Source of the DNA: Desulfovibrionales bacterium
GTDB taxonomy: Bacteria > Desulfobacterota > Desulfovibrionia > Desulfovibrionales > Desulfovibrionaceae
DNA: 64,000 nucleotides
Direction: 5' to 3'
NCBI GenBank assembly: GCA_030156255.1
Contig: JASGMV010000005.1
Span: 1 to 64,000, forward strand
Under the pieces are notes generated by a model, which saw only the letters and a program-made list of their open reading frames with translations, was not told where the DNA came from and searched no databases. Made by a program: the position numbers and the translations under genes. This document shows, one piece after another, positions 15,170-36,076 of this stretch. The stretch's first letter is position 1, and every line of letters starts with the position of its first letter.

Positions 15170-15207
15170 GGATAAAATTATTTTCACGTATTGCCCAGGA
15201 GATGAAA

Positions 15208-15774
15208 ATGATTGATTGGAGTTCATGGGTTACAGCTGGTTCGACAATTGTTTTAGCTGTGCTAACATTTGTATATGTTAGGCTGACTAAAAAAATTGTG
15301 GAATCTCAAACGGATCCATGTGTTGTTGTTGCCTTGGAAATTTGCGAAGGCAGTGCTGGATTGTTTGTGATAAACGTAAAGAATATTGGATTTGGTATCG
15401 CTTACGACATCCAATTTACCTTTTCTGAAAAACTCCCCAAAAGAGCTTTCGGAATATCGGAATGTGTAAAAAAAGAAGTAGAATATTTCGAATCAGGATT
15501 CTTAATAGATGGCATTCCGGCATTAGCTCCTGGAGAAAGTCGCAAACTGTATTGGGGACAATATGGGTGCATAAAAAATATTTTAGGTGACAAAAAAATT
15601 AAAATAACATGTAATTTTAAAAAAAATAATGTTAATATGAACCCAATAGTTTCTATATTGGAAATATCTTCATATAGCGATACAATTGTACCAAAAAGTT
15701 CAATATCAGATTTGGTTGAAGAGATCAAAAAAATAAATTCAAATATTAGTAGATTATCTAATAAAATCAAGTAG
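15208..15774 (+). CDS. AT-rich membrane-anchored protein of unknown function
   Basis: A 188-residue protein with one N-terminal membrane segment (residues about 8-26), a probably beta-rich middle (LFVINVKNIGFGIAYDIQFTF) and a lysine/serine-rich helical C-terminus. The stretch NVKNIGFGIAYD recalls small membrane-anchored proteins with an immunoglobulin-like domain. I infer no function. AGGAG lies 6 nt before the ATG at 15208; an ATG at 15202 is too close to it. Base composition is far more A/T-rich than all neighbours and codons favour A/T endings, a sign of recent transfer. It stands alone between two core operons. Confidence 0.75.
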   Translation: MIDWSSWVTAGSTIVLAVLTFVYVRLTKKIVESQTDPCVVVALEICEGSAGLFVINVKNIGFGIAYDIQFTFSEKLPKRAFGISECVKKEVEYFESGFLIDGIPALAPGESRKLYWGQYGCIKNILGDKKIKITCNFKKNNVNMNPIVSILEISSYSDTIVPKSSISDLVEEIKKINSNISRLSNKIK

Positions 15775-21219: not shown

Positions 21220-21562
21220 CCGCCCTTCCTCCTTCCTTCATTGCACGAGTCGCCGTGGTTGGAGCTTGACGAAAGACTTGGACCAAGACGAATGGGAGCA
21301 AGCCTCTATCCATTCTTATCCCATGGTGAGGGCGCTTCGCGCTCCGCTTTTTCCTGACGCGTCCTTCCAAGCGCCAACGCCCAAAAAAATTATGAACGAT
21401 CGGACGGTCGTTCTGCTGCGATTGCGTGATTTGCGTGAATTCGATCGATTTTTGCGCGTATTTTCTATATTTTATCTTATTGAAATAAAATGATAAATTT
21501 TGAATTACAGCTGGGTTGGGCGGGCAGGTCTGGTTTTTGCTTTTATGGGAGTGGAGCGTGCA
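21220..21562. other. Regulatory gap before the truncated sensor/wHTH gene
   Basis: 343 bp without a supported gene. It turns A/T-rich towards its right end (21440-21500). It holds one copy of the island motif (21421-21430, ATTGCGTGAT, directly followed by TTGCGTGAA) and a weak GG-N10-GC element at 21527-21540. Short frames here lack ribosome sites. Confidence 0.5.
21421..21439 (+). promoter_or_regulatory. Candidate activator site upstream of the truncated paralogue
   Basis: ATTGCGTGAT followed by TTGCGTGAA. It differs by one base from the 10-mer repeated at 25943 and 25983 upstream of the sigma-54 promoter. Its position, about 140 nt before the start codon, suits an enhancer or autoregulatory site. 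Confidence 0.4.
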
Positions 21563-23236
21563 ATGAACCAGTCCTCCACCACCACCCGGCCGTCGCGGCT
21601 TGTGACCAAGACGGCTTTATATTTGGCTCCGGCCGTTGCTCTGGTCATGCTTTGCTGTTTCCTGAGCGCCCAGCGTCTCTTTGATGCGAATGAAAAGGAG
21701 AAGCGGCGGGTTGAAGTCCAGTCCAGAACCGAAGAGTGCGCCCACCAGTTGGAGTCCGTGCTGGAAACCTGCCGCCAGGATTTGCTCCTGGTCGCCGCAG
21801 GCGCCCCGGACGGGCGAGGCTGGGCGCAACGGTTCGCCGATTGGAGACGGATTCGGACCGCGCCCTACGGCGCATTGTTTTGGGTCCCCGACGACCTAAG
21901 CCGACCCACGCTTCTCGCCGATGGCGCCGACGAACTTAGAGAATATTTCGAGCCCGGGCTGCGACGCAGTCTTATGGATGCGTTGCGAGCCGGCGGCCAA
22001 CGAGAAGCCTTGCAGGGCGGCGTGCGTTTCGTCGGGGGCGGCGCGCCTCTGAGCGGGGAAAGCGCCGCGCCGTTTTTTTTATTCGCATTGCCCCGTAACG
22101 AAACCGCCTTAGGCCCCGGCGTCCTGTTTTTGTCTTTGGACGCCCGTGCGCTGCGCAACAAATTGCCGTCGCTTCCCAAAGCGGACGCCGCGGCCGGAGG
22201 GTGGAGCGACGAGCGCTTCGCATGGTTCGCCGATGCGGATGGCTGGATTCTTTTTCAATCCGGCCCGGAGGGAGAGCCGGACAGCCGCTTGGAGACGTAT
22301 CTGGCCCGGACCGGCCTGCGAGGCGCCCTGGGCAAGCCCGGGTACGCCTCGGCTTTTCGGCCGATGGAGGACCATGGGCAATATTGGCGGATGATGGCCG
22401 CCGTCTTATCGGAAAACGGCGACGAGGCGAAAATTGTTCAATGGCCGGACGACCGAGGCGTGTCCGCCGTGGCCCCGGTGCGCCTTCCGGGGCTCGACCA
22501 AGCCTTCACGCCGGTGGGCGTGGTGGTGTACACGGACCGCCACCGCGGCGTTGCGCCCGGCGTCTTGTATCCTTTGTCGTTGCTGCTGGCCTTGGCGGGC
22601 TTCGTCGTCTTGATCGTCTGCCTCGCCGTGGCGCACAAATTGGCGGCCAGGCCCCTGCGGGAGCTTGCCGATGCGCTGCAAGACGACGACGCCTTGGCGG
22701 CTGCGGATCGGGCTGCGCGCGCGCCCTGTCGGGAGGCGCGCCGGGTGGGCGAGGCCGTCCACAGCATCTTACAGAGAGGCGCGCAACAGGAGGCTATGAG
22801 TCCGAGCGCCGCCGGCAAGTTGCGTGAACCGGCGGTCATCCAGACCAACGGGGCGTATGGCGTTGCGCCGTCCGGAGACCATGCGCATGGCGCGGAAGGG
22901 GTGCAAACTTCCAGTATGCCAATCGACCGCCATGGGGATGGCGTCTTGCACGCAAAAGCCTTCAATGCTCGGCGTCCCGCCGTTCTCCAGATAGAAAACG
23001 GCTTGAGCTCCCGCCAGGCGACGGCCTTGTCGGAGATTTCGCGGCGAGGAGTCATCACGCGCAACGAGTATCAGCAGATCGTTGGAGACGGGTTGCCCGC
23101 CCGCACGGCGATCCACGATCTGAACGATCTGGTGCGCAGGGGATTGTTGACCAGGCAGGGACGCGGGCCGGCGACGCGTTATGTGGTCGTTTCGTCCGGC
23201 GAGGCGGTGGAATCCTCCCTGGAGAAGGGGGCCTGA
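21563..23236 (+). CDS. Membrane sensor fused to winged helix, lacking AAA+ domain
   Basis: A 557-residue paralogue of the sigma-54 activator encoded tail to tail at 23353-25917. It has a first membrane segment (about residues 17-38), a periplasmic sensor (about 40-325) with FAWFADADGWILFQSGPEGE and YLARTGLRGALGKPGYASAF matching the activator (YSYLFDADGWMIFQS, YLARAGYTGTLGKPGQPMAF), and a second membrane segment (about 335-360). A linker follows. Its C-terminal winged helix (LSEISRRGVITRNEY...TAIHDLNDLVRRGLL) matches the activator's C-terminus. The whole AAA+ module is absent, so it cannot drive sigma-54 polymerase. It may compete for the same DNA sites. The ATG at 21563 has GGAG 7 nt upstream. 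Confidence 0.82.
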   Translation: MNQSSTTTRPSRLVTKTALYLAPAVALVMLCCFLSAQRLFDANEKEKRRVEVQSRTEECAHQLESVLETCRQDLLLVAAGAPDGRGWAQRFADWRRIRTAPYGALFWVPDDLSRPTLLADGADELREYFEPGLRRSLMDALRAGGQREALQGGVRFVGGGAPLSGESAAPFFLFALPRNETALGPGVLFLSLDARALRNKLPSLPKADAAAGGWSDERFAWFADADGWILFQSGPEGEPDSRLETYLARTGLRGALGKPGYASAFRPMEDHGQYWRMMAAVLSENGDEAKIVQWPDDRGVSAVAPVRLPGLDQAFTPVGVVVYTDRHRGVAPGVLYPLSLLLALAGFVVLIVCLAVAHKLAARPLRELADALQDDDALAAADRAARAPCREARRVGEAVHSILQRGAQQEAMSPSAAGKLREPAVIQTNGAYGVAPSGDHAHGAEGVQTSSMPIDRHGDGVLHAKAFNARRPAVLQIENGLSSRQATALSEISRRGVITRNEYQQIVGDGLPARTAIHDLNDLVRRGLLTRQGRGPATRYVVVSSGEAVESSLEKGA

Positions 23237-23352
23237 TCCCGAGTGATCGGCGGGCGGAAAGCGTTTTTGGAATCCACGACCGATTGCGGCGCGGGCGGCT
23301 TGTCGCCGAAAGGCGGGACGCCAGCGGAGCCTTCGATCAACTGCGCGCCCCG

Positions 23353-25917
23353 TTATTCCTTGGAGGAGTGTTTTGCTGCAACCGCTCCGAAATTGACTTG
23401 ATAACGGGTGCTGGGTCCTGCGCCGAGTTTGACCAGCAGTCCGCGCTCCACGAGATCCGACAAGTCGTTGAGGGCGGTGCGGGGCGAGATGGTTTCCTGT
23501 TGCATGGCCTGGTAGTCCGCCCGGGTCAGGCTTTCCGTGTCGGCCAGGGCTCTGAGGGCGATTTTTTGTCGAGGGTTGAGCCCGTCCAACTCCGTTTTGG
23601 GGGCCTTTTCCTGCAGGGCGGACGCCGGCTCGGGGCCGCTTTCGACGGGAGCGAAGCTCTGGTCGGCAAACGTTTCGCTTCCGAAACTGGCCGGCTGGGA
23701 CTCCTCCGGCCAGGTAAAGACCGTTTCCTGCGGGAGTTCGGCGGTCTCCTCGTCCAGGCGAATGTCTTCATTCTGGATGAGAGCGCCCTCGGACATGATG
23801 GCCGCCCGGAGCATGGCGTGCTTCATTTCCCGCACGTTGCCCGGCCAGTCGTGGCGTAGTATTTTCTCCAGGGCTCCCTTGCTCAACACAAGCTTGGACC
23901 GTCCCGCCTGGGCCTCCGCCATGCGCAGGAAGCTCATGGCCATGATGGGAATGGACTCCTTGAGCGTGCGCAGGGGCGGGGTGTGGATGGTGACGACCTT
24001 GAGCCGGTAGTAGAGATCTTCCCTGAATTGGCCTTCCCGGATCATGGCCCGCAAATCCACGTTCGATGCGGCGAGAATGCGCACATTGACGTCGATTTCG
24101 CGGTCGCTGCCCAACGGCCTGATTTTGCGCATGGCGATGGCGCGCAACAGGGCCTGCTGCACCTTGGGAGTGGCGGATTGGATTTCATCCAGGAACAAAA
24201 CGCCGCCCTGCGCCTCCTGAAAGGCGCCCTTGCGATCGCCGCGAGCTTCGGTGAAAGCGCCTTTGACGTGGCCGAAGAGGCTGTCCAACAGCAGGTTCTC
24301 GTCTAACGCGCCGCAGTTGATGGCGATGAACGGATTTTGAGAACGCGGGCTCAAACGGTGCACCGCCTCGGCGACGAGCTGCTTGCCGGTGCCGGTTTCC
24401 CCGACGATGAGTACGTCCGCCTCCACTTGGGCGGCCTTGCGGACGTCGGCTCGCAAAGCGTCCAGGAGAGGCCCCACGCCCAGAAGTTCTTTGGGCTCGT
24501 CTTCGGACAGGTCCGTCGCCGCGGCGTCGAAGGTCGCGGGTTGTCTGGCCTGGACTCCCTCGATGGCCGCATCGCGCTCCCGTATCTCCGTCATTTGTCG
24601 GCGCACCGTCCGGATCATCTCATTGAGGGCGTTTTTTAGCGAAGACGTTTCCGCGTCGTAGTCGGGCAGAATGATTTCCGTGAGCTTGCCCGAGGCCCGG
24701 ATATCGTGCATCGCGGCGGCCAGCCGGATGATGGGGCGGGTGATGGTTCTGCCCAGGAAATACGTCACCAGGGAAAGCAGAACGATCGTGGCTAACGTGA
24801 TGATGAACATGACGTCGATGTGTTTGTAGCCGGCGCGAAGGTTCAAAGAGCTTTTGTCGATGTTGGCCAGCCCGGCGTAGATTACGGGCGCTCCGCCGGG
24901 AGTGGGGCTGAACAGGACGGGAGCGTATCCCATGAAGTAGGATTTGCCGAAACCCGGCGTATAGGCTGTTGTTTCCGGCTCTTCAATGACGCCGTGTCGC
25001 CCCTGCAGGGTTTCGGCGTGCATGCGCCAGTATTCGGTGAACTTTGATTCCGGGCGAAAAGCCATGGGTTGGCCCGGCTTGCCCAGGGTCCCTGTATAAC
25101 CGGCCCGCGCCAGGTAGGTGGCCATTTCATGGTTGGGTTTGTGGAGATCGGCGGATTGAAAGATCATCCACCCATCTGCATCGAATAGATAGGAGTAGCG
25201 GACTTCCGGACTGCGGGGGACCGCCCAGAGGGGTGAGTCTTCGGAATTGTACAAGGACAAGAGGTCTCTCAATCGCTTGGCCTTGATCGAAAGCAGGTAG
25301 GCGCCTTTGACGACGTTGTCCTGGCGCAGCGGGACCGTGAAGCGTATGGCCTCCTCCCGCAGCAAGGCGCCGTCCGGCTGGGGCCTGACTTCGACCAGCG
25401 CCACGGGTTCGATGCGCACCGTCAAAGGCGGTAGCTTTGATGCGGCGCGGGCCGAAGCCATGGGGTCGGGCGAGGGACCGTCCGGGCCGAACGCCTGGAT
25501 GCTTCTGGCGGCTCCATTGGCCAGAATGCAGTACGCCGGTTTGGAGTCGCCGTCGAAGGGGACATAGGCCAATTCCAGATAGCAGCCGGGGCGAATGCGG
25601 TCCAAGTGGGACAGGCGCGCCGGAAGATCGTCCGCCGCGGGGGCGTCCTCCGCGATGAACAGCAGGTCGTCGCGCGAACGCTCCAGGAAAGAGCCGAGTT
25701 CCCGGGCCAGACCCAGCGTCTGGAACTGAACGCTGCGTTGCAAGGCGTTGTTTAGAAAATTGTTGGAGAAAATGTAGGTCACATAGCCGGTCACGGCGAG
25801 AAGCGCGACCACGGCCGGAATCAACACCACCAGCAATTTGAAGCTGATGCGTCCCTTCCGGATCGCCTCGATGAACCGCAGTGGGACACGATGCTTGTTC
25901 GCCCCTTCCCCCTCCAT
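23353..25917 (-). CDS. Membrane-anchored sigma-54 activator with sensor and wHTH
   Basis: An 854-residue transcription activator of the bacterial enhancer-binding type. Order: membrane segment (about 24-45), periplasmic dCache-like sensor (to about 370), second membrane segment with HAMP-like stretch (about 375-430), linker, AAA+ domain with Walker A GETGTGKQ (about 502-509) and Walker B LFLDE, then a C-terminal winged helix (about 790-845) instead of the usual Fis-type helix-turn-helix. The sigma-54 contact loop reads GAFTEA (near 555) instead of GAFTGA, an uncommon change at a key position. The ATG at 25917 has GGAGG upstream; a GTG 3 nt earlier is also possible. It is divergent to the sigma-54 promoter at 26067 and presumably controls it. 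Confidence 0.92.
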   Translation of the reverse strand: MEGEGANKHRVPLRFIEAIRKGRISFKLLVVLIPAVVALLAVTGYVTYIFSNNFLNNALQRSVQFQTLGLARELGSFLERSRDDLLFIAEDAPAADDLPARLSHLDRIRPGCYLELAYVPFDGDSKPAYCILANGAARSIQAFGPDGPSPDPMASARAASKLPPLTVRIEPVALVEVRPQPDGALLREEAIRFTVPLRQDNVVKGAYLLSIKAKRLRDLLSLYNSEDSPLWAVPRSPEVRYSYLFDADGWMIFQSADLHKPNHEMATYLARAGYTGTLGKPGQPMAFRPESKFTEYWRMHAETLQGRHGVIEEPETTAYTPGFGKSYFMGYAPVLFSPTPGGAPVIYAGLANIDKSSLNLRAGYKHIDVMFIITLATIVLLSLVTYFLGRTITRPIIRLAAAMHDIRASGKLTEIILPDYDAETSSLKNALNEMIRTVRRQMTEIRERDAAIEGVQARQPATFDAAATDLSEDEPKELLGVGPLLDALRADVRKAAQVEADVLIVGETGTGKQLVAEAVHRLSPRSQNPFIAINCGALDENLLLDSLFGHVKGAFTEARGDRKGAFQEAQGGVLFLDEIQSATPKVQQALLRAIAMRKIRPLGSDREIDVNVRILAASNVDLRAMIREGQFREDLYYRLKVVTIHTPPLRTLKESIPIMAMSFLRMAEAQAGRSKLVLSKGALEKILRHDWPGNVREMKHAMLRAAIMSEGALIQNEDIRLDEETAELPQETVFTWPEESQPASFGSETFADQSFAPVESGPEPASALQEKAPKTELDGLNPRQKIALRALADTESLTRADYQAMQQETISPRTALNDLSDLVERGLLVKLGAGPSTRYQVNFGAVAAKHSSKE

Positions 25918-25942: not shown

Positions 25943-25992
25943 ATTGCGCGATGCGAAATCGTCACGCAATTTATTCTCCTAAATCGCGCAAT
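25943..25992. promoter_or_regulatory. Paired candidate enhancer sites for the sigma-54 activator
   Basis: ATTGCGCGAT at 25943-25952 and its exact reverse complement ATCGCGCAAT at 25983-25992, with a partial ACGCAAT at 25964-25970. They lie 75-125 nt upstream of the -24 box at 26067, typical for enhancer sites, and next to the activator gene. Near-identical sites occur at 33375 and 33425. Confidence 0.6.
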
Positions 25993-26039: not shown

Positions 26040-26066
26040 CTGAAAAATAAAAATATAATTTTTCAG
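26040..26066. promoter_or_regulatory. AT-rich inverted repeat abutting the sigma-54 promoter
   Basis: CTGAAAAAT (26040-26048) and ATTTTTCAG (26058-26066) form a 9-bp inverted repeat with an A/T-only spacer directly upstream of the -24 box. It could be a bending-protein (IHF-like) site or an operator. No similar repeat was found at the other sigma-54 promoters. Confidence 0.35.
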
Positions 26067-26081
26067 GGCACGCTGGTTGCT
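26066..26081 (+). promoter_or_regulatory. Sigma-54 promoter of the signalling operon
   Basis: GGGCACG-CTGG-TTGCT matches the consensus TGGCACG-N4-TTGCT except the first base. GG at 26067-26068 and GC at 26079-26080 are 10 nt apart. Transcription would start near 26091 and read into the gene at 26201. Confidence 0.8.
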
Positions 26082-26200
26082 CATATACGGAGAGCGATAG
26101 CGCGTCACCGACGCTGCAATTCGATGGCGGAATGAGAGGTGCTGCATGGTCGCCGCCTTACGGTTGGGCGGAGCGAAAAAACGCTACGAAGGAGAGAACC

Positions 26201-26665
26201 ATGGGTCTGGGAATCGTGAAGAGGGTTCGCAGCGAATACGGGGATGCCCTGGAAGATAACGGTCCCGGTGATCGGAGTACGTTCACGTCCGTGTTTTTTG
26301 CGCTGGTCTTGGTCCTTGTTTTGGCGGTGGGTGGAATTTTTTATGTGGAGCGCCGCGTGGCCTCGTCCCAGGAAGCCCTGGCGGGTTTGGTCCAGGACCT
26401 GCGTGCGCAGCGCGACGCGCTGGAGGACAAGATCGCCGCTTTAGGGACGTCTTCGGCAGAGCTGCAACAGCGCATCGAAAAATTGGAGAAAGCTCCCGCT
26501 CAAATGGATCAGATTTTGTTGCGCACGACGCTCTACGACATCAGCCAGAAGCTAACTTTGCTCAAGGCTCAGCCGTCATTCTCCCCTGAGACGGTGCAGG
26601 CTTTGAGCAGGATGGAGGCCGAAATGCAGTCCGTACTTCGCCAGGCGGGCGTGTCCGGCCAATAA
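26201..26665 (+). CDS. Membrane coiled-coil protein, first gene of the sigma-54 operon
   Basis: A 154-residue protein with a cytoplasmic N-terminus of about 27 residues, one membrane segment (FFALVLVLVLAVGGIFYVE, about 32-50), then a heptad-rich coiled coil (residues about 52-95) and a helical tail. No enzymatic motif. It might scaffold signalling proteins at the membrane. GGAG lies upstream of the ATG at 26201; an in-frame ATG at 26132 lacks a good site. It is the first gene behind the strong sigma-54 promoter, so its expression should depend on the activator at 23353. Confidence 0.8.
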   Translation: MGLGIVKRVRSEYGDALEDNGPGDRSTFTSVFFALVLVLVLAVGGIFYVERRVASSQEALAGLVQDLRAQRDALEDKIAALGTSSAELQQRIEKLEKAPAQMDQILLRTTLYDISQKLTLLKAQPSFSPETVQALSRMEAEMQSVLRQAGVSGQ

Positions 26666-26752
26666 AGGGGTTTGAAACCTGCCCCAACCCGAGCCCGGCC
26701 CTGCCATGGGTTGCGCCGCCCAGGCAGGGCGCGGGCGACAAGGAAGCTCGTC

Positions 26753-27133
26753 ATGAGACTGCTGTTGGTGGACGATGAGACGGAATTTTTGGAGATGATG
26801 GGTAAGCGGCTTGTTCACCGCGGCATCGATACGGCCGTGGCCGATTCCGGCCGTAAGGCCTTGGATATTTTGGACAATAGAGAGATCGACGCCGTGGTCC
26901 TGGATGTGAAGATGCCCGGCATGGACGGCTTGCAGGTCTTGCAGGAAATCAAGCGCCGCAAGCCCGGAATGGTCGTGGTTCTGCTCACCGGGCACGCCGA
27001 TCTGGACACGGCCGTACAGGGGATGGATTCCGGCGCCTTCGACTACCTCATGAAACCCGTCGCATTGGAGGAGTTGCTGGCCAAGCTGCACGAGGCCATG
27101 GACGAGCGCCAGCCGCTGGATTCTTCAGCCTAA
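26753..27133 (+). CDS. Single-domain response regulator (receiver)
   Basis: A 126-residue stand-alone receiver with no output domain. The acidic pair is in LLVDDET (residues 7-8), the phospho-acceptor is Asp51 in VVLDVKMPGMDG, the Thr is in LLTGH and the Lys is in LMKP. Such CheY-like proteins work by contacting a partner or relaying phosphate. Partners could be the two kinases (29790, 31833) or the PEP-synthase-like protein immediately downstream. AAGGAA precedes the ATG at 26753. It belongs to the sigma-54 operon. Confidence 0.92.
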   Translation: MRLLLVDDETEFLEMMGKRLVHRGIDTAVADSGRKALDILDNREIDAVVLDVKMPGMDGLQVLQEIKRRKPGMVVVLLTGHADLDTAVQGMDSGAFDYLMKPVALEELLAKLHEAMDERQPLDSSA

Positions 27134-27150
27134 CCTCGAAGAGGGGCGCC

Positions 27151-29823
27151 ATGAGCGGGCTTTGGTCTGCCTTCAGGAGAATGATTTCACGCTCTCAGGC
27201 TGCGAACGACGCAGACGAGGCGTTTCACGCTTCGCGGTTGCTGGAGCGTTGCCAAGCCTTCCGCAAACTTCTCGCGGCCAACAACCAGGCGCTCGGGGCC
27301 ATGGCGGCGATCGATGAACTCGCGGCCGGGACCGAGCCGTTCACCATGAATCAGGTGCGCAGCCTGTGCACCGAGGTCGCCGTTCGCGTTCTGCAAATGG
27401 TCCAGCAGGTCGAGGCGCTCGCTCCTGGCCGTTATCCGGGACTGGAGGCCGCCTTCCGCGCGATCCAACAGGAACTGGCGGACGTCCTGCGCCGGGAGCC
27501 CGGCCCGAGCTCGGAGGCCCCGTTGATTTTCGATCTCCAGGGTGTGGACTGCGCCATGGCGTCCGTGGTGGGCGCGAAATCCGCCAATCTGGGGGAGGCC
27601 GGCCGTCTGGGATTCCGCACGCCTCCCGGGTTTGCTGCGACTACGGCGGCGTACGCGCTATTCATGGCCTCCGACGGGCTCGCCGAGGAGATCGACCGGC
27701 GCATCCAGGCAGCGGGAGCGAAAGCCTTGGACGAGGCCCATGCCTTGTCCTCCAGCCTGCAACAGCTTGTGATGCGCTCCGCGCTTCCGGAGTCCCTGGC
27801 GCTGGAGTTGAACGCCGCCTGCGCCAGGTTGGCCGAACGCCTGGAGACGGGCGAGGCCTTGCGGTTGGCCGTTCGCTCCTCGGCCGTTGGCGAGGACGGC
27901 GAGGCCTATTCTTTTGCGGGTCAATACCGCTCCGTGTTGAACGTCGGCCTCGAGGACGTCGCCGCCGCCTACAAAGAGGTCATAGCCTCCAAGTACGGCG
28001 TCACGGCCATGAGCTATCGTCTGGCGCGCGGACTGCGGGATGAGGACGCGCCCATGGGCGTCATGGTGATCCACATGGTGGATGCAGCGGCCGGCGGCGT
28101 GGCCTACACGGCGGACCCGGCCACGGGGCGTTGCGAGCATGTATTCGTTCACGCGGTCTTCGGGATGCCCAAGGCCGTGGTGGACGGAGCGACGGAGTCG
28201 GACGTCTACCGCATCTGCAGGGAGCCGTTGGAGATCGCCATGTCCTGCATCGGGAGCAAAAAAACGAAACTGGTTTTGGCCCGAGGGGAGGGCCTGGCCT
28301 ATGAGCATTCTCCCGGCGACGTCGCCGGAGCGCCCTGCCTGAAGCCGGAGCAAGCGCTGGAAGTCGCACGCGCGGCTCTGGCGTTGGAACGCCATTTCGG
28401 CGCTCCCCAGGATGTGGAGTGGGCTTTCGACCGCGAAGGTCGGCTTTTTATTTTGCAGAACCGTCCGCTCAGAATGCCGGAGACGCCTATGGACTACGCC
28501 GAGCTGGAGGTGGCGCAGTCCGATATTCTTTTGTCCGACGGTGTAACCGCTTCGGCCGGAGTCGGCGTCGGACGCCCCTACATCGTCCGTAAGCAGGCTG
28601 ACGCCCTGCGGCTTCCGAAAGACGCGGTGTTGGTCGTCCGCAACGCCTTGCCGGCCTGGGCGTCTCTGTTGGACCGGGCTTCGGCCGTGGTGGCCGAACT
28701 TGGCGGCGCGGCCGGGCATTTGGCGGCCGTGGCCCGAGAAATGGGAACGCCGGCCTTGTTTGGGGCTTCCGGCGCCATTGCGGCTCTGGCGCGCGCCGAA
28801 GTCGTTACGGTGGACGCCGACAGGGGCGTGGTGTTGTCCGGCGACCGCTCGCAGTTGCTGTCCCGCAAACCCCGGTCTCCGCGGGTCATGGTCGGCGCGC
28901 CGGTGCACGACGCCTTGTTGCGGGCCGCTCGTTTGACGACTCCGCTATCGTTGATCGATCCGGACAGCCCCCTGTTCGATCCCGGGTATTTCCAGAGTCT
29001 GCACGACGTGACCAGATTTTGCCATGAGAAGGCCGTGGAGGCGATGTTCGCTGAGGACGACGACCGCCGCTTTCCGCAGGCTTCGGCTCTTCGCTTGTCG
29101 TATCAGGGCAAGCCTCTCCAGTATTGGGTGGTGGACCTGGGCGGCGGGGTTTCCCCCGCCGCGCCTCCTGCGGACAAAAACCGCTCCTCCCGCCTCGATG
29201 TGGAGATGGTCGCCTGCCGTCCGTTTCGGGCTCTGTGGCGGGGCATGATCGAACTGCCGTGGAGCGGTCCGCCGGCGTTGGACATGCGCGGCTTCGCCAG
29301 CGTGGTGGCTCAGGCCGCCTCCAACCCGGACCTGGAGCCGGGAAGAAGTTCGGCCATGGCCATGCGCAATTATTTTCTGATTTCGGACGAGTTCATGAGC
29401 CTGCAGTCCAGGTTCGGGTTCCATTTTTGTACGGTGGAGGCGCTTATCTGTCCGGTTTCAGAGGAGAACTTCGCGTCGTTCCAATTCAAGGGCGGCGCGG
29501 CGGACCGGGGTCGCCGAGTGCGCCGGGCGCGCCTGCTGGCGGACGTGCTCGAAGGCTACTGCTTTATCGCCGAAAATCGGGAGGATTCCGTCGTCGCCCG
29601 ATTGGAGGGCGCTTCGGTGAGGGAAATGGAAAATGCTTTGGCCATGTTGGGCTATCTGCTCATACATACGCGCCAACTGGATATGGTCATGGCGGACAAC
29701 GCCAGGGCCGAAGCCGAATTCAAACGGCTGCGCAGAGACATTGACATTATTTTGTCGCGCAACGCGCGTCGCGCGGTTGAGGAGACCTCATGGAAAAATC
29801 AGGGCACAGCGGGCTCAAACTGA
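27151..29823 (+). CDS. PEP synthase/PPDK-like protein with novel C-terminal region
   Basis: An 890-residue protein. The first 125 residues are helical and match nothing I know. A PEP synthase/PPDK-type ATP-binding domain follows (about 130-450), with VRSSAVGEDGEAYSFAGQY and GGVAYTADPATG. Next is the swivelling phospho-histidine domain (about 470-570), where GGAAGHLAAVAREMGTPALF places the acceptor at His523. The PEP/pyruvate TIM barrel is absent. A roughly 290-residue C-terminal part of unknown fold takes its place. The parts present suggest transfer of a phosphate from ATP to His523 and then to an unknown acceptor, as in rifampin phosphotransferase and related enzymes. It lies between a receiver and a histidine kinase, overlapping the kinase by 34 bp. 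A regulatory phosphotransfer role is inferred. Confidence 0.85.
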   Translation: MSGLWSAFRRMISRSQAANDADEAFHASRLLERCQAFRKLLAANNQALGAMAAIDELAAGTEPFTMNQVRSLCTEVAVRVLQMVQQVEALAPGRYPGLEAAFRAIQQELADVLRREPGPSSEAPLIFDLQGVDCAMASVVGAKSANLGEAGRLGFRTPPGFAATTAAYALFMASDGLAEEIDRRIQAAGAKALDEAHALSSSLQQLVMRSALPESLALELNAACARLAERLETGEALRLAVRSSAVGEDGEAYSFAGQYRSVLNVGLEDVAAAYKEVIASKYGVTAMSYRLARGLRDEDAPMGVMVIHMVDAAAGGVAYTADPATGRCEHVFVHAVFGMPKAVVDGATESDVYRICREPLEIAMSCIGSKKTKLVLARGEGLAYEHSPGDVAGAPCLKPEQALEVARAALALERHFGAPQDVEWAFDREGRLFILQNRPLRMPETPMDYAELEVAQSDILLSDGVTASAGVGVGRPYIVRKQADALRLPKDAVLVVRNALPAWASLLDRASAVVAELGGAAGHLAAVAREMGTPALFGASGAIAALARAEVVTVDADRGVVLSGDRSQLLSRKPRSPRVMVGAPVHDALLRAARLTTPLSLIDPDSPLFDPGYFQSLHDVTRFCHEKAVEAMFAEDDDRRFPQASALRLSYQGKPLQYWVVDLGGGVSPAAPPADKNRSSRLDVEMVACRPFRALWRGMIELPWSGPPALDMRGFASVVAQAASNPDLEPGRSSAMAMRNYFLISDEFMSLQSRFGFHFCTVEALICPVSEENFASFQFKGGAADRGRRVRRARLLADVLEGYCFIAENREDSVVARLEGASVREMENALAMLGYLLIHTRQLDMVMADNARAEAEFKRLRRDIDIILSRNARRAVEETSWKNQGTAGSN

Positions 29824-31442
29824 CCATCGTCGCAGCCATTCTGGCGTTCTCCCTTATCCCGCTGTTCGGATTGGGACTTTTTTTTCATATTCAATTCACG
29901 GAGGCTTTCGAGGAAAAAATCACCCGGACGCTGCGCATCATGGTCGAGGACAAACGCAACGTCGTGGATATGTTCCTGAATGAAAACGTCAACCAATTGC
30001 GGAACATCGCTTACACGCACACCTACAAGGAAATGTCCGACTCCGACTATCTGGCGGAGGTCTACCAGGTCCTGGCCGCCACATCGAACGCGTTTGTGGA
30101 TTTGGGGGTTTTCGACGCGTCGGGCGAGCATGTCGCCTACACCGGCCCGTACAAATTGAGCGGGCTGAACTATGCGGACCAGGAGTGGTTTCAGAACGTC
30201 ATGACCAAGGGGCGCTACGTTTCGGACGTGTTCCTGGGCCATCGGCGTTTTCCGCACATCATCATGGCCGTGAAACGGCAGGAAGGCGTGCAGACCTGGA
30301 TTCTGCGAGCCACCATCGACTCGGAGATGTTTACCGATCTGGTGCGCGGCTCCCAGCTCGGGGAGTTCGGAGACGCATTCCTGGTCAATCAGAACATGGA
30401 GCTGCAAACACAGTCGCACGGAGCGGCCGGAGTGATGGAAAAGGCCGTGTTGCCGAGGCAGGGGCGGTTCCCGGGCTTCCGCATGGTCGAATTTGTGGAG
30501 AACGGCCGGCAAATGATCGCCGGCGTGACCTGGCTGCAAACCAAAAACTGGATGCTGGTGGTGGCGGAAAATCCGGAGGAGGCGCTTTCGCCCTTGGTGG
30601 GCGTCCGGTGGCGAACCTTCGGCATCGTCCTGGCCGGAGCGCTGATCATCTTGACCGGGGCCGTGCTCACCGCTTCGACCATGATTCGCCAGCTCAACGA
30701 ATATGATCGGCGGCGTGCGGAAAGCGACGCGGCCCTGATGCAGTCCTCCAAGATCGCCTCCCTGGGCAAAATGGCGGCGGGTGTGGCCCATGAAATCAAC
30801 AATCCCTTGTCCTTGATCCGGGAGAGCGCCGGATGGATTCAGGATTTGCTGACCGAGGAAGACCCCGAGGCGATCAAGAATTTCGGGGAAATCGAGGACT
30901 CGCTGGCAAAGATCGACAAGCACGTGGAGCGCGCCCGCAACGTGACCCATCGGTTGTTGGGTTTCGCCCGCCGCATGGAGCCCATGCAGGAAAACGTCAA
31001 TCTGAACGCCTTGGTGGACCAGACCGTGGCGTTTTTGGAAAACGAAGCTTTGCACCGGGAAGTGACGGTGGAGCGGCGATTGGATTCGAATCTGCCGCTG
31101 GTGACCACGGATTCGGCTCAGGTGCAGCAGGTGGTGCTCAACCTGTTGGAGAATGCACTGGACGCCGTGAATTCCCAGGGGCGGATCATTTTGCAAACCG
31201 GTTACGACGACAGGGAAGCGCGTATTTCGGTCCAGGACAACGGGTGCGGCATTCCCAAGGATATGGCGTCCAAAATTTTCGATCCGTTCTTCACAACCAA
31301 AAAAACCGGTGAGGGGACGGGGCTGGGCTTGTCCATCAGTTATGGAATCATCAAGAAGATGGGCGGGCGCATCAGCGTGGAGAGCGAGCCGGGAGCAGGC
31401 TCCACCTTCACCATCCACCTGCCGCTGGCGGCCGAGGAGTAG
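29790..31442 (+). CDS. Sensor histidine kinase with Cache domain
   Basis: A 550-residue membrane kinase. Membrane segment 1 (about residues 11-32), a periplasmic dCache-type sensor (about 35-275; [20 protein letters not shown] is typical), membrane segment 2 (about 280-300), then a HisKA domain with [10 protein letters not shown] (phospho-acceptor His334) and a HATPase domain ([25 protein letters not shown]). All catalytic boxes are intact. Its start lies within the end of the PEP-synthase-like gene, and its stop is 2 bp before the receiver gene at 31445, the probable partner. The ligand is unknown. Confidence 0.93.
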
Positions 31443-31444
31443 CC

Positions 31445-31828
31445 ATGGAGCGAATCAGGCTGTTGCTTGTGGACGATGAAGAGGAATTCGTGAACCTTTT
31501 CGTGAAACGGTTCAACATGCGCAACCTGGACGCCTTCGGCGTCACCAGCGGGAGGGCGGCCTTGGGCTATCTGGCCGAACATCCCGTAGACGTCGTCGTA
31601 TTGGACGTCAAAATGCCCGGCATGGACGGGCTCGCCGCGCTGGGCGAAATCAAAAAGCGGTTCCCGACGGTTGAAGTCATCATGCTCACGGGCCACGGTT
31701 CGCTCAAGTCGGGAGTTGAGGGCATGAGCCTCGGCGCTTTCGACTATGTCCTCAAACCCTTCCGTATCGACGATTTGTTGGATCGCATCCGCAAGGCGGC
31801 CGAACGCAAACGCCTTATGGGGGAATGA
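31445..31828 (+). CDS. Single-domain response regulator (receiver)
   Basis: A 127-residue receiver: acidic pair in LLVDDEE, phospho-acceptor Asp54 in VVLDVKMPGMDG, Thr in MLTGHG and Lys in VLKPF. No output domain. It resembles the receiver at 26753 along most of its length (both keep LDVKMPGMDGL), so the two may come from duplication. It is placed tightly between two histidine kinases (29790-31442 and 31833-32714), which probably phosphorylate it. Confidence 0.93.
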   Translation: MERIRLLLVDDEEEFVNLFVKRFNMRNLDAFGVTSGRAALGYLAEHPVDVVVLDVKMPGMDGLAALGEIKKRFPTVEVIMLTGHGSLKSGVEGMSLGAFDYVLKPFRIDDLLDRIRKAAERKRLMGE

Positions 31829-31832
31829 CGAC

Positions 31833-32714
31833 ATGCGCGCTGGACCGGCCGGGGAATTTTTTGACGTCGTCGGGCTCGGTTTGGCTGTCGCCCCGATTTG
31901 GCTTTTGGTCGCGGCGTTGCTGCTGGGAGCAACCGCCGTGCTCTTGTGCTTCCTGTTGCTGCGCGCCCGGCGACAGTTGTCCGAGACGCTGGCCGAGGCC
32001 GATACGCTCCGCACCAGCCTGGCTCGTGTCCAGAAGTTTTCCTCCCTCGGGCAGCTTTCGGCCGGCGTGGCCCACGAGATCAACAACCCCCTGGCCGTGA
32101 TCGGGCAGGAGGCGGAGCTGCTGGCCTTTTTGATGTCCCAACCGGATCAGGAGTCGGTGCGCGAAGAACTGGAGACGAGCCTGGATTCCATTCAAAGTCA
32201 AATCCGGCGAGCTTCGGACGTGACCCGGCGCTTGCTGGATTTTGCGAGAAGCCCGAGAGCCGTGATTCAGAACCTGGATCTGCGCGCGCTGGCGGAAGAC
32301 ATGGCCGTGCTCGTGGAGCGCGACGTCAGTCGCCGCGGCGTGCAATTGAACAAGAATTTCTGGGAGAGTCCGCTGCTGGCGCGTTCAGACGCTCCGCTTT
32401 TGCGCCAGGTTGTGATCAATTTGCTGCAGAACGCAGTTCAAGCCGCGCCGGACCACGATGGAGAAATCAGCCTGTCCGGGTGGAGCGAGAGGAGCTTCGC
32501 CTGCCTGGAGGTTGCGGACAACGGGCCCGGAGTTTCCAAAGAAGACGCCAATCGGCTGTTCACTCCGTTTTTCACGACCAAGCCTCCAGGGCAGGGCGTC
32601 GGCTTGGGCTTGGCCGTGTCCAAAAGGATCATGCACAGCCTGGGGGGAGATTTGACCCTGGAAAGCCAGCCCGGCCAAGGCGCCAGATTCCGTCTGTGGG
32701 TCCCGAAGTCCTAG
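31833..32714 (+). CDS. Histidine kinase with one hydrophobic N-terminal region
   Basis: A 293-residue kinase with an N-terminal hydrophobic stretch (about residues 13-43, one long or two short membrane segments), no periplasmic sensor, then HisKA with [10 protein letters not shown] (His81) and HATPase (NLLQNAVQA, DNGPGVS, GVGLGLAVS). A sensing partner must come from elsewhere, perhaps the Cache kinase upstream or the coiled-coil protein. GGGGA precedes the ATG at 31833, 4 nt after the receiver stop. It is the last gene of the sigma-54 operon; the next gene is convergent. Confidence 0.9.
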   Translation: MRAGPAGEFFDVVGLGLAVAPIWLLVAALLLGATAVLLCFLLLRARRQLSETLAEADTLRTSLARVQKFSSLGQLSAGVAHEINNPLAVIGQEAELLAFLMSQPDQESVREELETSLDSIQSQIRRASDVTRRLLDFARSPRAVIQNLDLRALAEDMAVLVERDVSRRGVQLNKNFWESPLLARSDAPLLRQVVINLLQNAVQAAPDHDGEISLSGWSERSFACLEVADNGPGVSKEDANRLFTPFFTTKPPGQGVGLGLAVSKRIMHSLGGDLTLESQPGQGARFRLWVPKS

Positions 32715-33374: not shown

Positions 33375-33434
33375 ATCGCGCAACGCCTATTACAAGTTAC
33401 GCGACCTTTGAAGACTCGCCTCGTATTGCGCAAT
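33375..33434. promoter_or_regulatory. Paired candidate enhancer sites between divergent promoters
   Basis: ATCGCGCAAC (33375-33384; reverse complement GTTGCGCGAT) and ATTGCGCAAT (33425-33434) differ by one base each from the motif next to the activator gene (25943, 25983). They lie 55-115 nt upstream of the chemoreceptor promoter and 95-165 nt from the CBS promoter, so one pair could serve both. Confidence 0.55.
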
Positions 33435-33486
33435 GCGCGAAAAGCCTTCGCTGCTGGAACGTGCAGCCGCCATTAAGTAATCGATC

Positions 33487-33502
33487 ATGGCACGATGGTT
33501 GC
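33487..33502 (+). promoter_or_regulatory. Sigma-54 promoter of the chemoreceptor
   Basis: TGGCACG-ATGG-TTGCT is a full consensus match, with GG at 33488-33489 and GC at 33500-33501. The start codon follows about 85 nt downstream. Confidence 0.85.
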
Positions 33503-33586: not shown

Positions 33587-35598
33587 ATGTCCGTGCGAAA
33601 CAAGTTATGGCTGGTATTTTTAGTTGTTGTGTTGGGGTTTGCAGCTATATTCGCAGCAGACGTGGTCGGCGACAGGATGGCGAGGCGGATGATGAACCTT
33701 CGGGAGCTGGCCGAAGATAGCTTCATCCAGGTCATGCAGGCCAGAAGGCAGGAGAAAAATTTCCTGCTCCGGGCGAAGGTCCAATACATTCCCCAGGTTC
33801 GGGAGCATATAGGCAACGGCCAGGTTTGCATTCAGAAGATCATTCTCCAAGACCCCGAGAACGCCGGCGCCGGTCGGAAAGTCCTGGAGTTGATGGACCG
33901 GTATCTGGGGGAGTTCGAAAAGATGGCGGCGGCCCAGCAGGCGAGGGGCCTGACCGAAGAGGAGGGCTTGCGCTGGACGTTTATCAAGTCCGCCGAGCCT
34001 TGGAGGCCGAATTCAAGCCGCTCACGGACAAGGACATGCTCATCGCGCTGCTGCAGTTGCGCCGGCAGGAGAAGAATTATCAGCTTCGCCTGAAAGATTC
34101 GTATCTCGAGAAAGCCCGCAAGGCCAATGACAGATTGAAGTCGCTGATTGACGCCTCCACGGAGCTGGACGACGGCCTGAAGTCCAGGCTGTACAACTTG
34201 CTGGGCGCCTACGACGCCGCCTTCGCGGATTATGTTGCGAATCAGAAGTTGCAGGAAAAGGTCGGCAGCGAACTGATGGTCGCCGCGCGCTCGTTGGAGC
34301 CCGCCATCGAAACGTTGAAGAATCATTACGTCCAGGAGCTCCAGCGGACGGCGCGCCAAATGAAACTGGCCGCGGCCGCCCTGGAGACGGGCGTCGTGGT
34401 TGCGGTGTTGCTCCTCATCGTCTGGGTGCTCATGTCCATCTCCAAGTCCATGAGGGCGTTGCAGTCTTTCGCCGCCAAGGTGGCCTCGGGCGATTTGGAC
34501 GCCAAGCCGGAAGGAAATTTTGCAGGAGAATTCGAGGCGCTTCGAAAACATCTGGCCGCCATGGTGCAGCAGCTCAAGGCGCGGTTCGCCGAGGTGGAGG
34601 AGAAAAGCGCGGAGGCTCAGGACAACGCCTCCAAGGCCCAAGTCGCCCTGTTGAAGTCGCAAGAGCAGGAAGGCAAAATATCCCAACTTCTTGGCCACAT
34701 GCAGAGTGCGGCCCACAAGGCGGACGGCATTGCGTCCCGGGTCGCCACGGCCTCGGAGCAGTTGGCTGCTCTTATCGGACAGGTGCGGAAGGGGGCCGTT
34801 GTCCAGAAGGACCGCATGACGGAGACTTCCACCGCTCTGGAGCAGATGAGCGCCGCCATCGAAGAGGTCGCCCGCAATTCGCTGCACGCTTCGGGCAGCG
34901 CCCACGAAGCCCGCGACAAGGCCGCCGAGGGCGCCGGCAGGGTCAAGGAGGCGGTGGAGGCCATCTCCACGGTTCGCCTCACGACGGAGGACATGCGCCA
35001 GGGAATGGATCGGTTGGGCGCCCAGGTGCAGACCATTGGCGAGGTTATGGGCGTTATCAGCGAGATCGCGGACCAGACCAATCTTCTGGCCCTGAATGCG
35101 GCCATCGAGGCGGCGCGGGCGGGGGATGCGGGACGGGGGTTCGCCGTCGTCGCCGACGAGGTGCGCAAGCTGGCCGAGAAGACCATGCAGGCCACCAAGG
35201 AAGTCGGAGAAAGCATCGAAGCCATCAAGGGCGCGGCGCGGGACAATGACGAAAGCGTCCGCAAGACCGTGGCCGCGGTGGAGCGGTCGACGAATCTGGC
35301 TAGCGCCACCGGCGAGACGCAGGAGGACATCGTGCGCCTGGCCGAGAACAACGTGCAGCAGGTGGAGGAGATCGCCTCGGCGTCCCAGGAGCAGTCCGCG
35401 GCCACGGAGCAGATCAACCGCGCGGTGGCGGAGGTGAACCGGATCGCCGGAGAGTCGGCGGACGGTATGTCGGAGTCTTTCGAAGCGGTGCGCGACCTGA
35501 GCCTGATGGCGCGGGAGCTGGCCCAGTTGATCGACCACATGCTCGCCGAGGCGGGAAAGAACGAGGGCGCGCAGTCCCCCGAACTCAGGACGGCCTGA
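33587..35598 (+). pseudogene. HBM-type methyl-accepting chemotaxis protein, frameshifted
   Basis: A chemoreceptor read in two frames. Frame 1 (33587 to about 33973) gives the start, membrane segment 1 and the first helical-bimodular half with [11 protein letters not shown]. Frame 2 (about 33973-35598) gives the second half with [10 protein letters not shown], membrane segment 2, a HAMP-like region and the signalling hairpin ([20 protein letters not shown]...[16 protein letters not shown]). The two RRQEKN motifs are the mark of HBM sensors. Adding one base at about 33973 (CGCTGG to CGCCTGG) restores a continuous protein. The rest looks under selection, so the loss is recent or a sequencing error. 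The gene follows a perfect sigma-54 promoter and precedes a receiver gene. It was likely a receptor for small organic acids or similar; the ligand is unknown. Confidence 0.82.
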
Positions 35599-35620: not shown

Positions 35621-36076
35621 ATGGCGTCGCAACGACCTATTGCATTGTTGGTGGACGACGAGGTTGAATTTTTGAAAAGCCTGCGCGAGCGTTTCGAGCT
35701 GCGGGGCTACGACACTCTTCTGGCCGAAAACGGTCGCGAGGCCGTGGAGACGGCGAAGAGTCGCCACATCGACCTGGCCGTGGTGGATTTGAAAATGCCG
35801 GACATGGACGGTTTGGCGTGCATCGCCAAAATCCAGGAGCTGCAGCCCGACGTCCGGACCATTCTGCTCACGGCCTACGGCGGCGACAAAATCCGCGAGG
35901 CCACGGAGTCGTTGGAGTCCGTCTACTTCGAGAAACAGGACATGGGGTCGTTTTGGGATTTTCTGAAGCGGGCCACCAAGCGCTTGGAGAACGCCATGGC
36001 CGCAGCCGGTCTGGCCGAGGACGGCGGCCGCGACGAGGCCATGAAGATCGAGCGGGAAGACCGGAAGGGCCGGTGA
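35621..36076 (+). CDS. Response regulator receiver with short C-terminal tail
   Basis: A 151-residue receiver: acidic pair in LLVDDEV, phospho-acceptor Asp56 in AVVDLKMPDMDG and Thr in LLTAYG. The conserved Lys is followed by Gln (YFEKQD) instead of the usual cis-Pro, which may alter the signalling surface. A charged helical tail of about 30 residues follows the receiver fold, with no DNA-binding motif. The gene starts 22 bp after the chemoreceptor with AAAGGAGC upstream, so it should be co-transcribed and may couple the receptor to the other signalling proteins of the island. Confidence 0.88.
   Translation: MASQRPIALLVDDEVEFLKSLRERFELRGYDTLLAENGREAVETAKSRHIDLAVVDLKMPDMDGLACIAKIQELQPDVRTILLTAYGGDKIREATESLESVYFEKQDMGSFWDFLKRATKRLENAMAAAGLAEDGGRDEAMKIEREDRKGR

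Follow-up and report, generated by a model that had tools for sequence, protein, structure and literature searches.

Sigma-54 promoters require an AAA+ activator, and to our knowledge the exit of regulators from sigma-54 is mostly known through point changes in the GAFTGA loop. Among the closest described systems is DVU0151, the sole activator of D. vulgaris without a Fis-type motif, which has a probable winged helix (PMC4641369, 2015). In this protein, an N-terminal sensor of unknown kind is combined with a GAFSEA loop that was rated compatible with activity, and the regulator is predicted to drive DVU0150-0146 (PMC4641369). A departure from sigma-54 has been described for Caulobacter NtrC, which is without GAFTGA and acts as activator and repressor at sigma-70 promoters (PMC12421884). 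For an enhancer-binding protein (bEBP) without AAA+, we found no precedent in the open-access literature, which misses most subscription papers.

Here, we analyzed a window of 64,000 nucleotides from the genome of a Desulfovibrionales bacterium (GCA_030156255.1, contig JASGMV010000005.1), in which two genes of interest have the following layout:

21563..23236, plus strand: P0001, the motorless member, 557 aa, with TM1, a periplasmic dCache, TM2, HAMP-like helices, a disordered linker, and a winged helix, without AAA+
21698..22552, plus strand: dCache sensor of P0001, residues 46-330 (AlphaFold2 and VIA-align)
22817..22990, plus strand: disordered linker of P0001, residues 419-476, at the position of AAA+ in relatives (AlphaFold2 and six-frame search)
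22991..23188, plus strand: winged helix of P0001, residues 477-542, with the motif RTAIHDLNDLVRRGLL and a pLDDT of 93-96
23353..25917, minus strand: P0002, a full-length membrane-bound sigma-54 activator, 854 aa, with a sensor, HAMP, AAA+ with a GAFTEA loop, and a winged helix
23395..23586, minus strand: winged helix of P0002, residues 778-841 (BLASTP)
23755..24465, minus strand: AAA+ domain and lid of P0002, residues 485-721 (Pfam)

The two open reading frames are convergent, with 116 bp between them. As the initial annotation had proposed, P0001 and P0002 have a common sensor and wing: BLASTP aligns the sensors with 33% identity over 291 positions (E 6e-29) and the winged helices with 29 of 64 residues identical (45%, E 3e-13), the latter being the alignment named beforehand as the one on which the proposal could fail. 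The ATPase is also confined to the minus-strand protein, as had been claimed—i.e. of the two, only P0002 matches Sigma54_activat (PF00158, E 9e-61), AAA_lid_14, and HAMP in Pfam and carries GETGTGK together with the GAFTEA loop, while PF00158 and PF25601 are unmatched in P0001. No AAA+ remnant was found in the P0001 linker when six frames were searched (z <= 1.6), which rules out a frameshifted motor, and the scattered alignment of this linker with relatives is alignment noise. Elsewhere in the window, which has a GC content of 60%, an ORF at 15202-15774 has a GC3 of 0.24 and no Pfam match, and looks recently acquired.

The AlphaFold2 model of P0001, built from a 32-row alignment (mean pLDDT 73, pTM 0.58), contains, in order, a long N-terminal helix (TM1), a mixed domain in the periplasm, another long helix (TM2), short HAMP-like helices, the linker, and the wing. 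The sensor has a double Cache fold, with residues 47-329 aligned by VIA-align and the TlpQ LBD as the best match (9kp3_B; Z 16.6, rmsd 3.5 over 227 residues), and the other top VIA-align rows, among the matches listed, are mostly dCache domains of chemoreceptors and kinases. Sensor residues that are invariant in the family are retained in P0001. In the C-terminal part, Foldseek matched MarR/AspA-like wings, and the recognition-helix core RTAxxDL is shared. PF00486 (Trans_reg_C) gave no match, either for P0001 at E <= 1 or for the isolated wing at E <= 10; weak Pfam matches of the wing (AbiEi_4, DIP2311-like) are below the cut-off and were not used for classification. With the wing aligned and AAA+ absent, P0001 is predicted to be what had been suggested: a DNA-binding protein anchored in the membrane that keeps the reader head but has no motor.

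The closest relative of P0001 is P0003, a full-length activator encoded on contig C43 of the same genome, with 40% identity in the sensor and 56% in the wing. The wing being too short for a tree, only the sensor was used; P0001 and P0003 are joined in it at 100/100 on a long stem, while P0002 falls in a different set of Solidesulfovibrio activators. As such, P0001 and P0002 are homologous but are not sister paralogues, which corrects the initial annotation, where they were called tail-to-tail paralogues, and a local duplication of P0002 as the origin of P0001 is rejected because the sister lies on contig C43. Nor does the tail-to-tail pair appear special, the arrangement being absent at the other motorless loci examined. 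At the P0003 locus (L034:3037-8477), a divergent histidine-kinase gene carries a TGGCATAggctTTGC promoter and is followed by genes for response regulators, of which one has CBS domains, and for a sodium:sulfate symporter.

Judged by sequence, the family of P0001 and P0002 is the DVU0151 type of membrane-bound activator, with a dCache sensor and a non-Fis winged helix. This assignment is made via Solidesulfovibrio orthologues that adjoin DVU0150-family genes (NF040783) and are matched by both window proteins. The loop reads GAF[ST][EDQ]A almost throughout the family (GAFTEA in P0002, GAFTQA in P0003)—i.e. E, D, or Q replaces the G of the GAFTGA sigma-54 contact loop in nearly all members, yet good sigma-54 promoters adjoin.

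Homologues are present in 171 of 288 family genomes and 188 of 348 order genomes, two overlapping sets sampled at one genome per species. Almost all are full-length with AAA+; the frames measure about 830-1060 aa, and shorter ones lie mostly at contig ends. Five proteins from three lineages, among more than 200 homologue-bearing genomes, are motorless. Besides P0001, these are two from Solidesulfovibrio (genomes G289 and G296, with the genus label taken from contig NZ_JNJA01000001.1) and two encoded on contigs JACRBZ010000021.1 (L172) and CAIMCT010000452.1 (L176). No further motorless members were found in 297 genomes of the phylum or in 389 genomes of the order of G632, and a named genome collection scanned with P0001 alone gave no matches. 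In a tree with all five, each motorless protein is nested among full-length ones and supported branches force 3 changes, whereas a single origin is recovered in 0 of 200 bootstrap trees, which rejects one ancient motorless lineage. According to this tree, sulfate reducers and related bacteria have lost AAA+ in at least three independent events. A full-length close relative is kept in the same genome in two of the three motorless lineages.

In Solidesulfovibrio, 12 of 14 genomes have a full-length orthologue and 2 have a motorless one, in the same syntenic place. The full-length operon includes Usp, DVU0150, TauE, and DUF4881 along with two more genes. By contrast, the two motorless loci are without the Usp, DVU0150, TauE, DUF4881, and 85-aa genes, and the last operon gene (F1) now adjoins the motorless regulator. 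Similarly, a GGCAC-N5-TTGC sigma-54 promoter is found at 11 of 11 aligned full-length loci and at 0 of 2 motorless loci. In the upstream alignment, full-length and motorless loci nonetheless have in common a TGTCAAG box and two blocks that are palindromic; the general half-site consensus flags nothing at the motorless loci, and it is the alignment with full-length sisters that shows the blocks. Based on this alignment and the gene losses, the reader head and its sites therefore stayed, while the motor was lost along with the promoter and most of the operon. The two motorless genomes retain only a distant full-length paralogue.

Selection was assessed with Nei-Gojobori counts and a simple correction in two motorless pairs outside the window's genus, which itself comprises one genome with one P0001 sequence. 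The Solidesulfovibrio pair, which shares one deletion, has a dN/dS of 0.315 overall (CI 0.23-0.42), with 0.20 in the sensor, 0.20 in the winged helix, and 0.57 in the linker. For the L172/L176 pair, the values are 0.21 in the winged helix (0.08-0.47), 0.36 in the sensor, and 0.85 in the linker, and the full-length sisters of this pair have 0.25 in the wing and 0.11 in the sensor. Motorless pairs are thus under relaxed constraint compared with full-length pairs (0.32-0.43 vs 0.03-0.23), and another activator of the two Solidesulfovibrio motorless genomes has 0.17. On these counts, constraint is relaxed yet clearly present in the DNA-reading and sensing parts, and motorless proteins therefore look like working switches without sigma-54.

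Half-sites of the form TTGCRYGA lie directly upstream of all three regulators (P0001, P0002, and P0003). In the window, sites and probable targets are located as follows:

21422..21439, plus strand: tandem half-sites upstream of P0001, TTGCGTGAT-TTGCGTGAA, of the tandem TTGCGTGA type
25944..25991, no strand assigned: upstream sites of P0002 and the divergent operon, TTGCGCGAT (25944, plus), TTGCGTGAC (25961, minus), and TTGCGCGAT (25983, minus)
26066..26080, plus strand: sigma-54 promoter of the divergent operon, GGGCACGctggTTGC
26198..32714, plus strand: probable P0002 target operon, encoding a coiled-coil membrane protein, a response regulator, and a PPDK_N/PEP-utiliser protein, then, in order, a dCache histidine kinase, a response regulator, and a histidine kinase
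33375..33502, plus strand: second probable P0002 target, with half-sites at 33375 and 33425/33426 and a perfect sigma-54 promoter, TGGCACGatggTTGC, at 33488

The geometry of these half-sites differs among regulators, with direct repeats at P0001 and mainly inverted ones at P0002 and P0003. In the 3.84-Mb window genome, a tandem arrangement (TTGCRYGA-N0-30-TTGCRYGA) has 3 locations: upstream of P0001 (21422), upstream of P0002 (25962), and within an ORF on contig C48, a hit that we attribute to chance. By itself, the number of half-sites upstream of P0001 stands out only modestly (p 0.016, or p 0.038 for two within 60 bp). The inward inverted pattern is found genome-wide at 25944 only, and the outward one precedes both P0003 and a TetR-type gene. 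The second of these outward sites, TCGCGCAA-TTGCGCGA, is located ~30 bp ahead of the TetR-type gene (L123:4508-4540; G000:C40:45507-45539), without a sigma-54 promoter, and may be an operator of that gene or a stray family site. The sites and promoter at 33375..33502 precede a chemoreceptor gene (33587-35598), which, given this arrangement, is probably a second target of P0002; a response regulator gene follows it (35621-36076). A protein similar to the PPDK_N/PEP-utiliser one also adjoins a related activator in L077.

No sigma-54 promoter with <= 2 mismatches is present between 19830 and 26066, and a plus-strand search ahead of P0001 gave no clear sigma-70 promoter. In the regions upstream of full-length genes, 61 in all, TGCGCGAT was counted 24 times vs 1.3 expected and TGCGTGAT 14 times vs 0.7 expected, the enrichment being derived from k-mers, as an expectation-maximisation motif search was dominated by A/T runs. 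A separate enriched signal in these regions, GGTTGCTA, fits the -12 element. In the same 61 regions, TTGACA is counted 37 times on the regulator strand and 3 on the other, which suggests sigma-70-type promoters close to the half-sites for many regulator genes. Upstream of the L172 and L176 motorless genes, we found no recognisable half-sites and no sigma-54 promoter, and a TTGACA box is common to both regions. A predicted lipoprotein gene (SCSKSINDRPD) comes after the motorless gene in both cases (L172:8140-9312 and L176:4829-5992; dN/dS 0.21).

With moderate confidence, we favor the reading that proteins of the P0001 type are sigma-54-independent, autoregulating transmembrane one-component regulators, with AAA+ removed in frame from a full-length ancestor. 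For P0001, this ancestor would have been an enhancer-binding protein of the DVU0151 type, full-length and membrane-bound, that was close to P0003. The periplasmic dCache would sense a small ligand, and the signal would travel via TM2 and the HAMP-like helices to the winged helix, which, on its flexible linker, could bind TTGCRYGA half-sites, first those ahead of its own gene. P0001 would then work at sigma-70-type promoters, because without AAA+ the sigma-54 polymerase cannot be opened, and could do so by blocking or recruiting, most simply as a repressor; autoregulation would be the simplest target since half-sites lie ahead of the P0001 gene itself. The initial annotation had offered two roles for such a protein. 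Of these, a regulator independent of sigma-54 agrees best with the comparative evidence—i.e. the loss of the promoter and most of the operon with blocks kept in Solidesulfovibrio, the lack of a sigma-54 promoter near P0001 and near the two other Desulfobacterota motorless genes, and purifying selection in two pairs—while the competitor is possible in the window genome only and does not extend to a general role.

As a ligand-controlled competitor or dominant-negative, P0001 would occupy the half-sites of P0002 and/or P0003, or form mixed dimers through the common dCache-TM-HAMP part, and so damp sigma-54 operons. Such a role would suit the half-sites directly upstream of all three regulators, the wing identity of P0001 (45% to P0002, 56% to P0003), the shared RTAxxDL core, and the close full-length relative found in the same genome in two of three lineages. 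We still regard it as unlikely, as the full-length orthologue in Solidesulfovibrio is replaced rather than accompanied, with most of the sigma-54 operon gone, as the direct repeats at P0001 are unlike the mainly inverted sites at P0002 and P0003, and as the tail-to-tail pair is not conserved.

It could also be argued that P0001 is a decaying gene, a redundant duplicate that recently lost AAA+ by deletion and whose functionless remainder has survived by chance. However, the loss is clean and in frame, the 557-aa frame is intact, the sensor and winged-helix folds are confidently modelled, invariant sensor residues are retained, and a tandem site still lies upstream; moreover, dN/dS in the sensor and wing of two other pairs is well below 1, with the linker alone near neutral. 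Decay thus seems rather improbable to us, even with a single sequence in the window's genus, a long P0001/P0003 stem, and relaxed dN/dS in motorless pairs elsewhere. Least credible of all is an assembly or binning error that joined the ends of two activator genes: although the window genome is a draft in 106 contigs, P0003 is the sister indicated by the P0001 sensor and by the wing alike, the reading frame is unbroken, and the architecture recurs in four other assemblies, one of which is a single 4.69-Mb contig (G296).

Beyond this locus, we tentatively propose that enhancer-binding proteins repeatedly become membrane-bound sigma-54-independent regulators by clean AAA+ excision, with sensor and sites kept, as a general evolutionary exit. 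If true, a comparison of sister species could show the exit from sigma-54 control while it is under way. In this one family, the whole motor has been lost at least three times, beyond point changes in GAFTGA. Because Solidesulfovibrio has orthologues with and without the motor at the same place and with the same site blocks, the step from motor to switch is testable by domain swaps between sister species.

Compared with known systems, the OmpR-type wing of ToxR and CadC is N-terminal and combined with a single TM helix, whereas P0001 has two TM helices and HAMP-like helices, its sensor is a dCache, and its wing, at the C-terminus, is MarR/AspA-like and descends from a bEBP. Like P0001, ToxR and CadC unite an extracytoplasmic sensor, a membrane helix, and a cytoplasmic DNA-binding domain in one protein (PMC5430869, PMC10269533), and, by analogy, the way P0001 works is likely similar. 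DVU0151 of D. vulgaris Hildenborough resembles the family in its long N-terminal region, its non-Fis winged helix, and its divergent sigma-54 operon with DVU0150, a gene family (NF040783) that the full-length Solidesulfovibrio proteins also adjoin. It differs in that DVU0151 has AAA+ and a predicted sigma-54 promoter, while the motorless proteins are without AAA+ and without such an adjacent promoter. The divergent operon of P0002 (26198-32714) also differs, holding RR, PPDK_N, and HK genes and not those of the DVU0150-DVU0146 type. Caulobacter NtrC is likewise a bEBP descendant that departed from sigma-54 (PMC12421884). NtrC retains the AAA+ fold and is without GAFTGA only, while the P0001 type, predicted to be anchored in the membrane and to carry a dCache sensor, lost the whole AAA+ domain. 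The activity of NtrC at sigma-70 promoters shows that bEBP descendants can leave sigma-54, and whole-domain loss would be one step further.
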